DNA from: a virus
Virus record (IMG/VR): IMGVR_UViG_3300045120_000187
Span: 1 to 41,516 of that record
Length of the DNA: 41,516 nt
Strand: one strand, 5' to 3'
The notes beneath the pieces were generated by a model. It did no database searches, had not been told where the DNA came from, and worked only from the letters and a program-made list of their open reading frames with translations. The position numbers and the translations under genes were made by a program. This document shows positions 3,351 to 13,947 of this stretch, piece after piece. Positions within the stretch are counted from its first letter, which is position 1. Each line of letters begins with the position of its first letter.

Positions 3351-3604
3351 CGTCGCCTGCTCCGGAAACGCTGGAACGCGAAAAAGACAAGCTGTATCTT
3401 ACGGATGCGGAGCTGATCCGTTGGCTTGGCGTGCCCGAAAAATACTTCCGGACGATCCTCCCTGCCCTTGAAACCAAGTACAATTTCCCCAGGAAACAGC
3501 CTCTTTTTGGTGGGAGACGCTACCGGCCGGCGGTTAAAACGTGGCTCGACAAGCACAACGGGCTTAACGTGGAAGCCCCTTCCCCCCGGAGAGCCCATCA
3601 ATGA
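3347..3604 (+). CDS. Candidate excisionase / small DNA-binding protein
   Basis: An 85-residue protein ending four bases inside the integrase start (ATGA). YLTDAELIRWLGVPEKYFRTIL (about residues 17-38) looks like a helix-turn-helix or winged-helix start. It is followed by a basic wing (GGRRYRPAVKTWLD). Small DNA-binding proteins placed immediately before int commonly act as directionality factors. The role is inferred from position and fold pattern, not from a recognised family signature. Confidence 0.55.
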   Translation: MTSPAPETLEREKDKLYLTDAELIRWLGVPEKYFRTILPALETKYNFPRKQPLFGGRRYRPAVKTWLDKHNGLNVEAPSPRRAHQ

Positions 3605-7637: not shown

Positions 7638-7888
7638 ACACCGAGGATGAGACCATGAAAGAGAATTGGGAAAAAGAACTCGACAAGCACGACGGCCAGC
7701 ATGCCACTAAAACCTATACCATCACTCAAGACCAGATGGATAGGCTTCACGGCGCAGCACATAGCGGAGCTATGCTGGGCGGCGATGCGGCTTATAAGGG
7801 GTGTCTGACTGTCGGGGCCGTCCTGGCTGAAATCGCATTCAAGGCAGGTTTCGACAAGTCACCGGGATCGGCGCCTGAAGGGCGATGA
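7634..7888 (+). CDS. Small hypothetical protein
   Basis: Read from the GTG that overlaps the preceding stop, this gives 84 residues. An ATG at 7655, eight bases after GAGG, would give 77 and is equally likely. The composition is charged at the N-terminus and glycine/alanine-rich later (GAAHSGAMLGGDAAYKG). The bases TGAACACCGAG at its start are repeated right after its end (7886-7896), where a 16-codon frame runs into a tRNA-like sequence; this may be a small duplication. Confidence 0.5.
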   Translation: MNTEDETMKENWEKELDKHDGQHATKTYTITQDQMDRLHGAAHSGAMLGGDAAYKGCLTVGAVLAEIAFKAGFDKSPGSAPEGR

Positions 7889-7900
7889 ACACCGAGAGTG

Positions 7901-7967
7901 GCGGGTTCAATTCCCGCTCGCTGGCCGAGATTAGGTAAGTAAAAAGGTTCGAATCCTTTTCCCCGCA
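7901..7967 (+). other. Two tRNA T-arm-like motifs (tRNA remnants)
   Basis: GCGGG-TTCAATT-CCCGC (7901-7917) and AAAGG-TTCGAAT-CCTTT (7943-7959) are textbook T arms. They flank TGGCCGAG, which resembles the D arm of class II tRNAs (Leu, Ser, Tyr). I could not close a cloverleaf for either: the expected acceptor partners and anticodon arm are missing. They look like remnants of one or two tRNA genes with internal deletions, or tRNA-like parts of a larger RNA. Confidence 0.5.
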
Positions 7968-7976
7968 AGGGGTTTT
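7961..7976 (+). terminator. Short intrinsic terminator candidate
   Basis: A four-base-pair all-GC stem CCCC/GGGG closed by a GCAA tetraloop and followed by TTTTG. It would end the accessory operon that stops at 7888. The stem is short, so it could equally be a helix of the structured RNA region. Confidence 0.35.
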
Positions 7977-8067
7977 GTAGCCACGGTGGTACGTGGGGCC
8001 TGACGGGTTGTAGGTGACGGAAAGCCGGAACCTTCTTTCTTTCACTCCTGAGCAGGAATCGAAAGCG

Positions 8068-8259
8068 ATGATCTATTACGCCGCATATCATTCCCCGATC
8101 TACATCGCCCCTGGGACCGTCTATCGCTGCACCGCGAAGCCCGGCCCGTCCGATTGCGTGTGGATGGTGCCGGGGATCCTAAACAGAGACAGGGTTTGTA
8201 CCAGAAGCCGCAAGGCTCCCACGCTCCCTTGCGTAGCTGCCGAAGTACAAGGCGGGTAG
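8068..8259 (+). CDS. Doubtful 63-residue ORF inside the structured region
   Basis: The first 37 residues (MIYYAAYHSPIYIAPGTVYR and on to VWMVPGI) look like protein, then the frame becomes basic and serine/cysteine-rich where the strong hairpins lie. The start codon itself is part of an ATCG-AAAG-CGAT hairpin, and no good ribosome-binding site is seen. It may be a broken gene or no gene at all. Confidence 0.25.
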   Translation: MIYYAAYHSPIYIAPGTVYRCTAKPGPSDCVWMVPGILNRDRVCTRSRKAPTLPCVAAEVQGG

Positions 8260-8485
8260 TCGCGGATCAAAGCGGGTTGGTGACAGCCGGAAAGACGGCA
8301 CAACAGTTCTTAAGCGAACAACGCTCGTGTGGGCCGCAAGCCCGGCGAGCAGACCCGACGCTCCATCGGGGCAGCAGGTGAGAGCCCTGCACGCTCCTGG
8401 CCAACCAACGCCATAGCCCGAATTCCGGTTGTCAAGACCCTCTTTGCGCTAGCAGGTTGAGGGAGGCGCGGGGTAGTGGTGGGGG

Positions 8486-9556
8486 ATGGACGCCAAAATC
8501 AGGGTAACCGCGCGGCCCTATACGACATTCGGTTTAATCCTTGATGAGCATGCCGGATCAGCGCCAGGATTTGATTTCGTTCGTCTTTTCCTGGCAACCT
8601 CAATCGTTGTCTATCATGCGGTTTTCTACACCAGGCCTCCCGAGGAAATCGGCCGCATATTGAGCGGACCTGCGGCAGCATTCATCAACATGCTCGTGCC
8701 GGCGTTCTTTGCGCTCAGCGGGTTTCTGGTGACGGGCAGCCTGCTGCGGCTGAAGAACATCAAGAAGTTTGTCGCACTTAGAATTTTGAGAATCTTACCA
8801 GCGTTGCTGGTAGAGGTATCGCTTTCGGCCATCGTTCTCGGCTCTGCGGTGACAGATATTCCCCTGCGACAATATTTTGCCGACGCGCAGCTTTACTCTT
8901 ACTTCTGCAATATCGTTGGCTTCATCCATTACCAACTTCCTGGCGTCTTCAAACATCAGTATCGGGATATCGTAAATGGCTCGCTCTGGACAATTCCCGG
9001 AGAGATTTGCTGCTACCTTTCATTGGTCGGATTGATGATCGTCGGGATATCGCATCGTCGATGGCTAATGCTCAGCTGCTTTATTGTGGCGACGATCGTA
9101 ACGTATCTGTGGACCAGGCAGAGTGGCGCATTCAGCACACAGCATTGGCTTCCGTTAGTGTTTTGCTTTTACGCTGGAAGTCTGCTGTTCCACTTCAAAG
9201 ACAAAACGCCCTCCTCTTGGGCCATCGCAGTAGCTGCCTTGCTGGCGTTTACCCTGATCTTTTATTTCAGGTACGGCCTTTATATCGTTTTCGGACCATC
9301 CTTGGTTGCTTATGCCGTCTGCTATTTCGGCACCAAGGAGCTTCCCCATATCAGGTATTTGATGGATGGCGATCATTCTTATGGGATCTATCTTTACCAC
9401 GCGCCAATCATTCAGACGGTTGTTTGGGCCATCGGCATGAACATTTCTGCCATAACGTGCTTTGCGATCAGCTTTCCGATCGTTGTCGGGTTCTCAATGG
9501 CGTCATGGCTATTTATTGAGAAGCCAGCTTTGGGCTTGCGACGGAAGATCATCTAG
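8486..9556 (+). CDS. Acyltransferase family 3 (OafA-like O-acyltransferase)
   Basis: A 356-residue polytopic membrane protein with about ten hydrophobic segments. Family marks in order: FDFVRLFLATSIVVYHA (R at about 33, H at about 44), FALSGFLVTGSLLR, RILRILPAL, SLWTIPGEICCYL (about 165-177), SYGIYLYHAPI near the C-terminus and FIEKPAL. OafA-type enzymes transfer acyl groups, usually acetyl, to surface polysaccharide at the inner membrane. In a temperate phage this is a typical lysogenic-conversion gene that alters the O-antigen and blocks superinfection. GGTGGGGG directly abuts the ATG, closer than normal. It ends two bases from the stop of the convergent late operon. Confidence 0.85.
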   Translation: MDAKIRVTARPYTTFGLILDEHAGSAPGFDFVRLFLATSIVVYHAVFYTRPPEEIGRILSGPAAAFINMLVPAFFALSGFLVTGSLLRLKNIKKFVALRILRILPALLVEVSLSAIVLGSAVTDIPLRQYFADAQLYSYFCNIVGFIHYQLPGVFKHQYRDIVNGSLWTIPGEICCYLSLVGLMIVGISHRRWLMLSCFIVATIVTYLWTRQSGAFSTQHWLPLVFCFYAGSLLFHFKDKTPSSWAIAVAALLAFTLIFYFRYGLYIVFGPSLVAYAVCYFGTKELPHIRYLMDGDHSYGIYLYHAPIIQTVVWAIGMNISAITCFAISFPIVVGFSMASWLFIEKPALGLRRKII

Positions 9557-13231: not shown

Positions 13232-13638
13232 GAAAGACCCCCGTGCGGGTTTACAATCTGGTAGCCAGCAATGGACCGGGGATGAACGCGGGTCATGTGC
13301 CGGCCTGAGTTGGCGTCATAGGCCAGCCAAGTATCGCCGCCGATATGCCGTTCGAGGACAAAGACGTGATGCCTTCGGACAGCCGCCATACCAGGAGCCG
13401 GCGCGGCCCTCGGAAACCGGAACCAGCTAGCAGCCCGCCATAGCTCATGACGCATTGCGTTCCCGAAGATCCGCACTGCCGCCCCGCAGCCACAGAAGGC
13501 GCGTGAGGGGCACCCGGAAGGATGGGCTACAACCTCCCCTGAAACAGTCCGAGGCGCGTAGTGGTGCCTCTGGCGGGCTTGGGCGGGTAGCGTGACGCAA
13601 GCGAGCGCAAGCGCCGCGATAACAGCGGTTTTCAACAT
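13228..13638 (-). CDS. Exported cysteine-peptidase-like protein (CHAP/NlpC-like candidate)
   Basis: A 136-residue protein with signal peptide (KTAVIAALALACVTLPAQA). The mature part has RAFCGCGAAVRIFG (about 46-59), a WRAASWFRFPRA helix, HHVFVLERHIGG (about 90-101) and TWLAYDANSGRH (about 103-114). This matches a family of small exported proteins common in Bradyrhizobiaceae; the Cys...His arrangement resembles CHAP/NlpC amidases. It could cleave peptidoglycan from the periplasm. The enzymatic assignment is inference. Confidence 0.55.
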   Translation of the reverse strand: MLKTAVIAALALACVTLPAQARQRHHYAPRTVSGEVVAHPSGCPSRAFCGCGAAVRIFGNAMRHELWRAASWFRFPRAAPAPGMAAVRRHHVFVLERHIGGDTWLAYDANSGRHMTRVHPRSIAGYQIVNPHGGLS

Positions 13639-13653
13639 TCGTGATGCTTTCTG

Positions 13654-13947
13654 TTACTTGCCGATGATGGTCTTGAAGCCCATCCAGACGGCCCCAATGA
13701 AGCCGCCGGCAATAATCGTGACGATCGCCTTGAAGGAATAGGCTTGCGCAGCCTCGGTGCTTTTGCGCCATTTCCGGAGATGGCGAAAATCGGCTTGGAG
13801 CTCCCTGCGGTCGTCCTCTTCGATGCCGAATGAGGTTAGGATGGTGGCGATCGTCTTGAGAACCACCGTATCGATCTCGTTATTGTGCAGTCGTTGCTGT
13901 TCGGCCAGAACTTCCGCAACGATGTGTTTTATATCCTGCTCTTGCAT
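13654..13947 (-). CDS. Small membrane protein, lysis-region candidate
   Basis: A 97-residue protein. A charged helical N-terminus (EQQRLHNNEID, DDRRELQADFRHLRKW) is followed by one C-terminal hydrophobic helix (AIVTIIAGGFIGAVWMGF). It resembles the small membrane proteins near phage lysis genes that act as accessory holins or anti-holins. AGGA lies upstream of the ATG. It is four genes downstream of the endolysin. Confidence 0.6.
   Translation of the reverse strand: MQEQDIKHIVAEVLAEQQRLHNNEIDTVVLKTIATILTSFGIEEDDRRELQADFRHLRKWRKSTEAAQAYSFKAIVTIIAGGFIGAVWMGFKTIIGK

Follow-up and report, generated by a model that had tools for sequence, protein, structure and literature searches.

Two predicted structured RNAs, one with two tRNA-like T arms, in a gene-free gap of a phage genome

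Three groups of described RNAs bear on the locus analyzed here. GOLLD and ROOL are phage-encoded structured noncoding RNAs of obscure function that are often located near tRNA genes (PMC12286853). YrlA is an RNA of 90-150 nt whose T, D, and acceptor arms resemble those of tRNA (PMC8394870). The interdigitated double T-loop motif occurs in three unrelated RNAs and has the consensus sequences AGAGA and UGxRA (PMC7583486). Mimicry of tRNA as a principle is known, from YrlA as well as from tmRNA. The RNA that is the focus of this work, annotated herein as double T-arm (DTA) RNA, is by sequence comparison a new class of phage RNA, which covaries, occurs in at least 50 phages, and is found neither in Rfam nor in the open literature searched. 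That literature, limited to open-licence articles, returned no description of a double T-arm RNA, and one could exist elsewhere.

The window is a 41,516-nt stretch of viral DNA (IMG/VR virus record IMGVR_UViG_3300045120_000187, positions 1 to 41,516). It contains a gap of 597 nt between an ORF that ends at 7888 and an acyltransferase ORF at 8486-9556 (Acyl_transf_3 match). The gap is hairpin-rich and holds no convincing gene, which agrees with the first-pass annotation. An internal ORF at 8014-8259 (8068-8259 when counted from its ATG) had no match in Pfam or PHROGs. A scan with 8068-8259, confirmed by tblastn, found three phage contigs in which the match was confined to the last 15-25 codons; these apparent protein relatives are RNA-level matches, and the 63-residue ORF, which has no family, was rejected as a gene. 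The ORF is probably noncoding, because its C-terminal part lies inside conserved RNA and because a one-base deletion in the relative L004 (L numbers denote the phage loci compared) breaks the frame inside that block. The expectation that the gap would fold better than shuffled sequence held for the plus strand as a whole (z -1.91, none of 100 shuffles equally good; minus strand, z -0.83) and failed for its sub-blocks, none of which was significant alone (z -0.2 to -0.9). Since the sub-blocks are unremarkable, folding energy alone is insufficient, and the case for structure is made by comparison with relatives.

The first-pass annotation had read the gap as one large RNA of about 600 nt with two tRNA T arms at its start, possibly GOLLD, ROOL, or something new. 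The two T arms are present and both are canonical, and novelty was borne out by covariation in relatives and by the lack of an Rfam family. The single large RNA gave way to two RNAs, of approximately 112-145 nt and 123 nt, that occur mostly apart, with approximately 180 nt of the gap carrying no evidence of structure. A cmscan search with 4227 Rfam families at curated thresholds reported only true tRNAs, and permissive searches added only chance matches and, from the tmRNA or plastid models, single T arms. The identification with GOLLD or ROOL was abandoned, as neither covariance model matched at its gathering score or at E values up to 5, and no continuous fold longer than 600 nt was found. 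Against the tmRNA family RF00023 (gathering 47), DTA matched 17 of 374 model positions with 13.9 bits; against YrlA (RF02553), it reached 9.7 bits (gathering 69) over positions 31-47 only, which is one T arm. Neither ARAGORN nor RF00005 called a tRNA at the T arms, and the sole tRNA of the window is a tRNA-Asn at 1427-1501. The predicted features are collected in Table 1.

Table 1. Coordinates of the predicted RNA features in the window
Feature	Position	Strand	Evidence or remark
DTA RNA core	7891-8002, perhaps to 8032	+	Model R2, 87.1 bits, E 5e-20 (window in training set); 50 distinct relatives including the window; covariation
T arm 1, GCGGG-TTCAATT-CCCGC	7901-7917	+	Canonical T loop on a stem of 5 bp that covaries in 50 phages; aligns with positions 347-363 in the T arm of tmRNA
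Linker TCGCTGGCCGAGATTAGGTAAG with D-loop-like GG	7918-7939	+	TCGYTGGCCGAG conserved; GG in linker 51/51
T arm 2, AAAGG-TTCGAAT-CCTTT	7943-7959	+	Stem covaries in 50 phages
Optional P3 hairpin, CCCC-GCAA-GGGG	7961-7972	+	Sequence; variable hairpin here in most relatives, missing from short subclass
P4 hairpin, CCACG-GTGGTA-CGTGG, then directly GGCC	7981-8000	+	Outside search pattern; covaries (helix 3)
TGAC and predicted hairpin closed by GGGTT/AACC	8001-8032	+	Position and GGGGCCTGAC common to L103, L112, L141, and others; window hairpin differs
R1 RNA, pseudoknotted, with 3' GAC-GAAAGA hairpin, ~123 nt	8182-8304	+	Model R1, 123 bits, E 5e-30 (window in training set); covariation
GGGTTTGTACCA: GGG 8192-8194 with CCC 8226-8228 (pseudoknot), ACCA 8200-8203 with TGGT 8278-8281	8192-8203	+	Double change in L088 (see text)
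P2 hairpin, AGCC-GCAA-GGCT	8206-8217	+	Different-sequence hairpin in distant relatives, e.g., L010 GCTGA-GTAA-TCAGC
P1 helix (8219-8225 with 8271-8276) around variable stem	8219-8276	+	93.6% of cells paired, one double-change pair
GAC-A-GCCG-GAAAGA-CGGC module	8282-8299	+	Stem covaries (helix 5); ~35 distinct phage loci carry this module
Block with helices 8323-8350, 8354-8370, 8374-8390	8305-8440	+	z -0.87; no convincing relative among phage loci compared
Short leader of acyltransferase gene	8436-8489	+	78% over 54 nt with L002 3572-3624, there too directly before ORF start

A weak BLAST match led to an unannotated gap of approximately 940 nt in Pseudomonas phage Touem01 that contains the same two T arms and linker. 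The pattern GTTCRANTCC-N(3-10)-TGGCCGA-N(10-35)-GTTCRA, derived from the window and Touem01, matched 61 viral stretches. By eye, 50 of the 58 distinct sequences, the window and Touem01 counted, belong to one DTA family, and eight matches were dropped as chance; L127 is a copy of the L105-type DTA. Both T stems have at least 4 bp in 43 DTA sequences. The same pattern gave three chance matches in coding sequence among 754 alpha- and gammaproteobacterial genomes, none of which (0/3) had both T stems of at least 4 bp. An exact search with T arm 2 and P3 found no match, and BLAST searches of cultured phages and plasmids with each of the two RNAs returned only Touem01, for DTA, and a weak match to the 3' module described below in Rhizobium phage B1VFA. 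The Touem01 gap (L099) contains a further T-arm structure at L099:2080-2170 (Touem01 ~13580-13670), with the long closing stem AAGCTCAAC..GTTGAGCTT.

Because the search pattern prescribed the T-loop letters and the TGGCCGA of the linker, the constancy of these letters is not evidence. The T arms are 25 nt apart and are joined by TCGYTGGCCGAG..GG, in which all but TGGCCGA was free to vary. Beyond the pattern, the family shares T-C-G-Y before TGGCCGA, the linker GG, and the optional hairpin; the P4 loop holds GG in 43 of 50 sequences, and GGCC follows P4 in 45 of 51. At 7891-8002, the window carries the two T arms, the TGGCCGA linker with its GG, and a P4 with a GG loop ahead of GGCC. Across three helices, the covariation score was 0.507 as compared to 0.119 for shuffled alignments (0/500), and 161 double-change cells were counted versus 46 in shuffles; slid controls were much lower. 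Ordinary tRNAs would also show covariation of their T stems; DTA is set apart from them by having neither an acceptor nor an anticodon arm and by its conserved linker of 25 nt. Model R2, trained on 32 sequences, found the remaining family members at E 1e-9 or below, a recovery that is not a fully independent test because these members came from the same pattern scan. On 92 other loci, tRNA-rich ones included, nothing scored above 19.5 bits. It should be noted that ARAGORN calls of tRNA-Leu, -Tyr, -Ser, or -??? overlap the DTA in L111, L147, L122, L153, and L154, and DTAs may therefore be misannotated as tRNAs in databases.

The genomic context of DTA is variable. An ORF that ends within 30 nt of DTA lies on the DTA strand in 16 of 17 cases, and about two thirds of DTAs do not directly follow a same-strand ORF. 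An intrinsic terminator follows DTA in 5 of 50 sequences, and the window DTA has no recognizable promoter or terminator. With only five terminators found, many DTAs may belong to longer mRNAs; the close same-strand upstream ORFs and the few terminators suggest transcripts derived from 3' UTRs. The neighboring genes vary among the phages (terminase, portal, ParB-methylase, RecE, virion RNA polymerase, and acyltransferase), none encodes a protein common to the DTA loci, and this variability favors a role in trans. tRNA genes are located near some DTAs.

The evidence for the second RNA, R1, consists of eight sequences, several of which are closely related. The seven relatives of the window are L002, L003, L004, L008, L010, L011, and L088, with L008, L010, L011, and L088 added by pattern scans of viral contigs; the locus L009 was dropped as chance. 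With some departures, the eight sequences have a common order, which is GGGUUUGUACCA, a hairpin, CC.CGCU-CCC, a variable stem, AGCGGG-UUGGU-GAC, a hairpin with the GAAAGA loop, and CCAA. In this structure 92.5% of cells pair, and double changes occupy 11 cells versus 3.2 in shuffles. Covariation scored 0.275 versus 0.140 shuffled (0/500), with slid controls much lower. The pseudoknot pairing GGG/CCC is replaced by CAG/CUG in L088; the ACCA/TGGT pairing is nearly invariant in the class and provides no covariation evidence. Model R1 scored 95-136 bits for the full-length class, which are training sequences, versus 37 bits for L088, which lies outside training, and its weaker matches are mostly to the module only. 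R1 patterns found no real copy in 84,980 bacterial genomes. Compensatory changes in relatives, the check proposed at the outset, were thus seen for both DTA and R1 (0/500 shuffles each).

The 3' GAC-GAAAGA module of R1 is found more widely. The pattern GGTGAC..GGAAAGAC..CCAA, which fixes only the closing pair of the stem, matched 63 viral stretches, and a stem of at least 4 bp surrounds the module loop in 35 of 50 distinct matches, where approximately 5% would be expected by chance. The stems covary among 25 sequences with varied pair types; these sequences were picked among stem-positive matches, so that the variety of pair types is evidence and the percentage paired is not. The upstream parts of the loci fall into several classes. 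Among the 35 stem-positive loci, 11 have a same-strand tRNA gene no more than 500 nt away, as compared to 0 of 15 stem-negative controls (Fisher p 0.011), and the anticipated linkage to tRNAs was accordingly recovered, with tRNAs near a good share of relatives. The module is 2-4 nt from tRNA genes in L071, L095, and the cultured Rhizobium phage B1VFA, where a variant immediately precedes tRNA-Cys. Two further loci show multiple elements. L011:30-236 contains two different GGTGAC-module RNAs in tandem, one of class GGACCGCGCTCGATCAG followed by the R1 class, and L063:1894-2400 (~500 nt) contains a GGTGAC module, a similar second one near 2050, and three T arms for which ARAGORN makes no tRNA call.

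The module also provides a connection between the two families. Six DTA relatives end 3' in the same GAC-GAAAGA hairpin as R1, at the site that corresponds to 8001-8032 of the window, which ties the DTA and R1 families. Regardless, the two seldom travel together: model R2 found no strong DTA and one weak match on 22 records with an R1-type module, and model R1 gave only weak matches on DTA loci. The interpretation of R1 and DTA as a single RNA was rejected since they are mostly separate across records, and the comparison indicates that they are two independent predicted RNAs that adjoin in this window. As for the rest of the gap, the three consecutive helices that had been singled out at 8323-8390 are present as sequence, and their folding energy and lack of a convincing relative (Table 1) lend them no support as structure. 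The acyltransferase leader is possibly a translation-control hairpin.

Taken together, the covariation and model searches suggest that both RNAs are almost certainly real. The fuller statement, that these are two undescribed structured phage RNAs and that DTA is a trans-acting mimic of the tRNA elbow, is plausible with its mechanism included and is put forward tentatively. Besides its two T arms, DTA has a GG segment in the linker and another in the P4 loop. The T loops would most likely dock to GG as they do in the tRNA elbow, which would give one or two tRNA-elbow surfaces without an anticodon arm, acceptor stem, or CCA. Transcription of DTA would occur at operon 3' ends, often right after a stop codon, and would sometimes stop at an intrinsic terminator. 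It would then probably act in trans by occupying factors that recognize the tRNA elbow; putative partners are host tRNA-processing or -modifying enzymes, ribosome-linked factors, or tRNA-targeting defense proteins. R1 is a compact, predicted pseudoknotted RNA whose GAC-GAAAGA hairpin, a module it shares with other phage RNAs, probably binds the partner of DTA or defines the 3' end.

Other functions must be weighed against elbow mimicry in trans. The T arms and P4 could form a cis-acting 3' UTR element that protects the upstream mRNA at its 3' end or directs its processing there, for instance by offering a tRNA-processing RNase a handle, with no role in trans. The 16 of 17 close upstream ORFs on the DTA strand and the terminators that follow some DTAs are consistent with this, as is the position of the R1-type module beside tRNA genes, where RNase P would set the 3' end of the module. 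However, for about two thirds of DTAs no same-strand ORF lies directly upstream, and a shield needs no two T arms with a conserved linker and loops, so we regard a purely cis-acting element as somewhat unlikely. It is less likely still, and in our view doubtful, that DTA binds tRNA through interlocked T loops that stack on the tRNA elbow, as in T-boxes, RNase P, and the ribosome. The two T loops are close together, tRNA genes lie near some DTAs and many R1-type modules, and the double T-loop motif is recurrent in unrelated RNAs; yet its consensus (PMC7583486) differs from the canonical GUUCRANUC loops of DTA, which together with the GG segments are a better fit to mimicry.

A Y-RNA-like tether, in which a tRNA-like domain and a protein-binding stem join a Ro60/Rsr ring to a nuclease as in YrlA, is suggested by the similar size of the two RNAs and by the T arms and D-loop-like GG of DTA. 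This function is improbable given that the RF02553 score is far under gathering with one T arm matched, and that a TROVE/Ro60 gene (PF05731) is found in 0 of 50 DTA records, which are phage records only, such that a host gene is possible. We consider it very unlikely that DTA is a packaging RNA like the phi29 pRNA: in L137, L103, and L101, DTA lies next to a terminase or portal gene, but most DTA neighbors are unrelated to packaging and the terminase of the window is more than 20 kb away. Phage attachment sites (attP) keep parts of tRNAs, T arms among them, and this phage has a weak integrase match, which would fit decayed tRNA genes or an integration attachment site with chance hairpins around it. 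That explanation is contradicted by the three-helix covariation and by the retention of the two-arm unit, linker, and covarying P4 in 50 phages including Touem01; with the integrase-like ORF ending 3 kb away as well, we find it the least credible.

Additional T-arm elements were observed among the loci compared. A T-arm-like element whose 7-bp acceptor-like stem surrounds AATGCGCAGGCTGATGCGC and GCCGGAGTTCAGCACCGGCC occurs in L088 (~3510-3570), L062, L045, L039, L138 (~980-1080), and just upstream of DTA in L105/L126. It adjoins DTA or the GGTGAC module, and the copies in L062 and L088 have no Rfam match. The phage contig L041 (2968-3029) encodes a tRNA-like gene with an acceptor stem, D arm, and T arm and no anticodon arm (GACATTCG..GCTCAGTTGGTAGAGC..GCTGGTTCAAGTCCAGC..CGAATGTC). 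A broader and more speculative possibility, which we do not hold to be probable, is that many phages carry an unnamed repertoire of tRNA-mimicking RNAs. Its members would be DTA, R1, and one or more additional T-arm-like elements (TGCGCAGGCTGATGCGC..GCCGGAGTTCAGCACCGGCC), joined by the shared 3' GAC-GAAAGA module or by location in the same gene-free spots and tRNA arrays, and would engage or divert the host tRNA machinery or tRNA-targeting defenses.

The DTA class fills gene-free gaps that phage genome annotators have left blank. It allows a test of whether phages, besides extra tRNAs, deploy RNA mimics against host tRNA metabolism or tRNA-cutting defenses, and the cultured carrier Pseudomonas phage Touem01 makes DTA experimentally accessible.

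Among known systems, GOLLD and ROOL resemble the two RNAs as structured phage noncoding RNAs that are often adjacent to tRNA genes (PMC12286853). They differ in size, at 659 to over 800 nt versus approximately 112-145 and 123 nt here, and in being represented in Rfam. DTA shares its T-arm sequence GCGGGTTCRATTCCCGC with tmRNA and tRNA, but has no recognized acceptor stem, anticodon arm, CCA, or tag ORF. With the double T-loop motif of T-boxes and RNase P it has in common two T loops in one RNA, whereas its arms are canonical tRNA T arms with another loop consensus; the loops read TTCRANN in all relatives, which is partly fixed by the pattern, and do not follow AGAGA/UGxRA. The closest functional analogue of DTA is YrlA, likewise a short RNA that mimics the T and D arms of tRNA (PMC8394870), with the difference that YrlA has one T arm and DTA has two.
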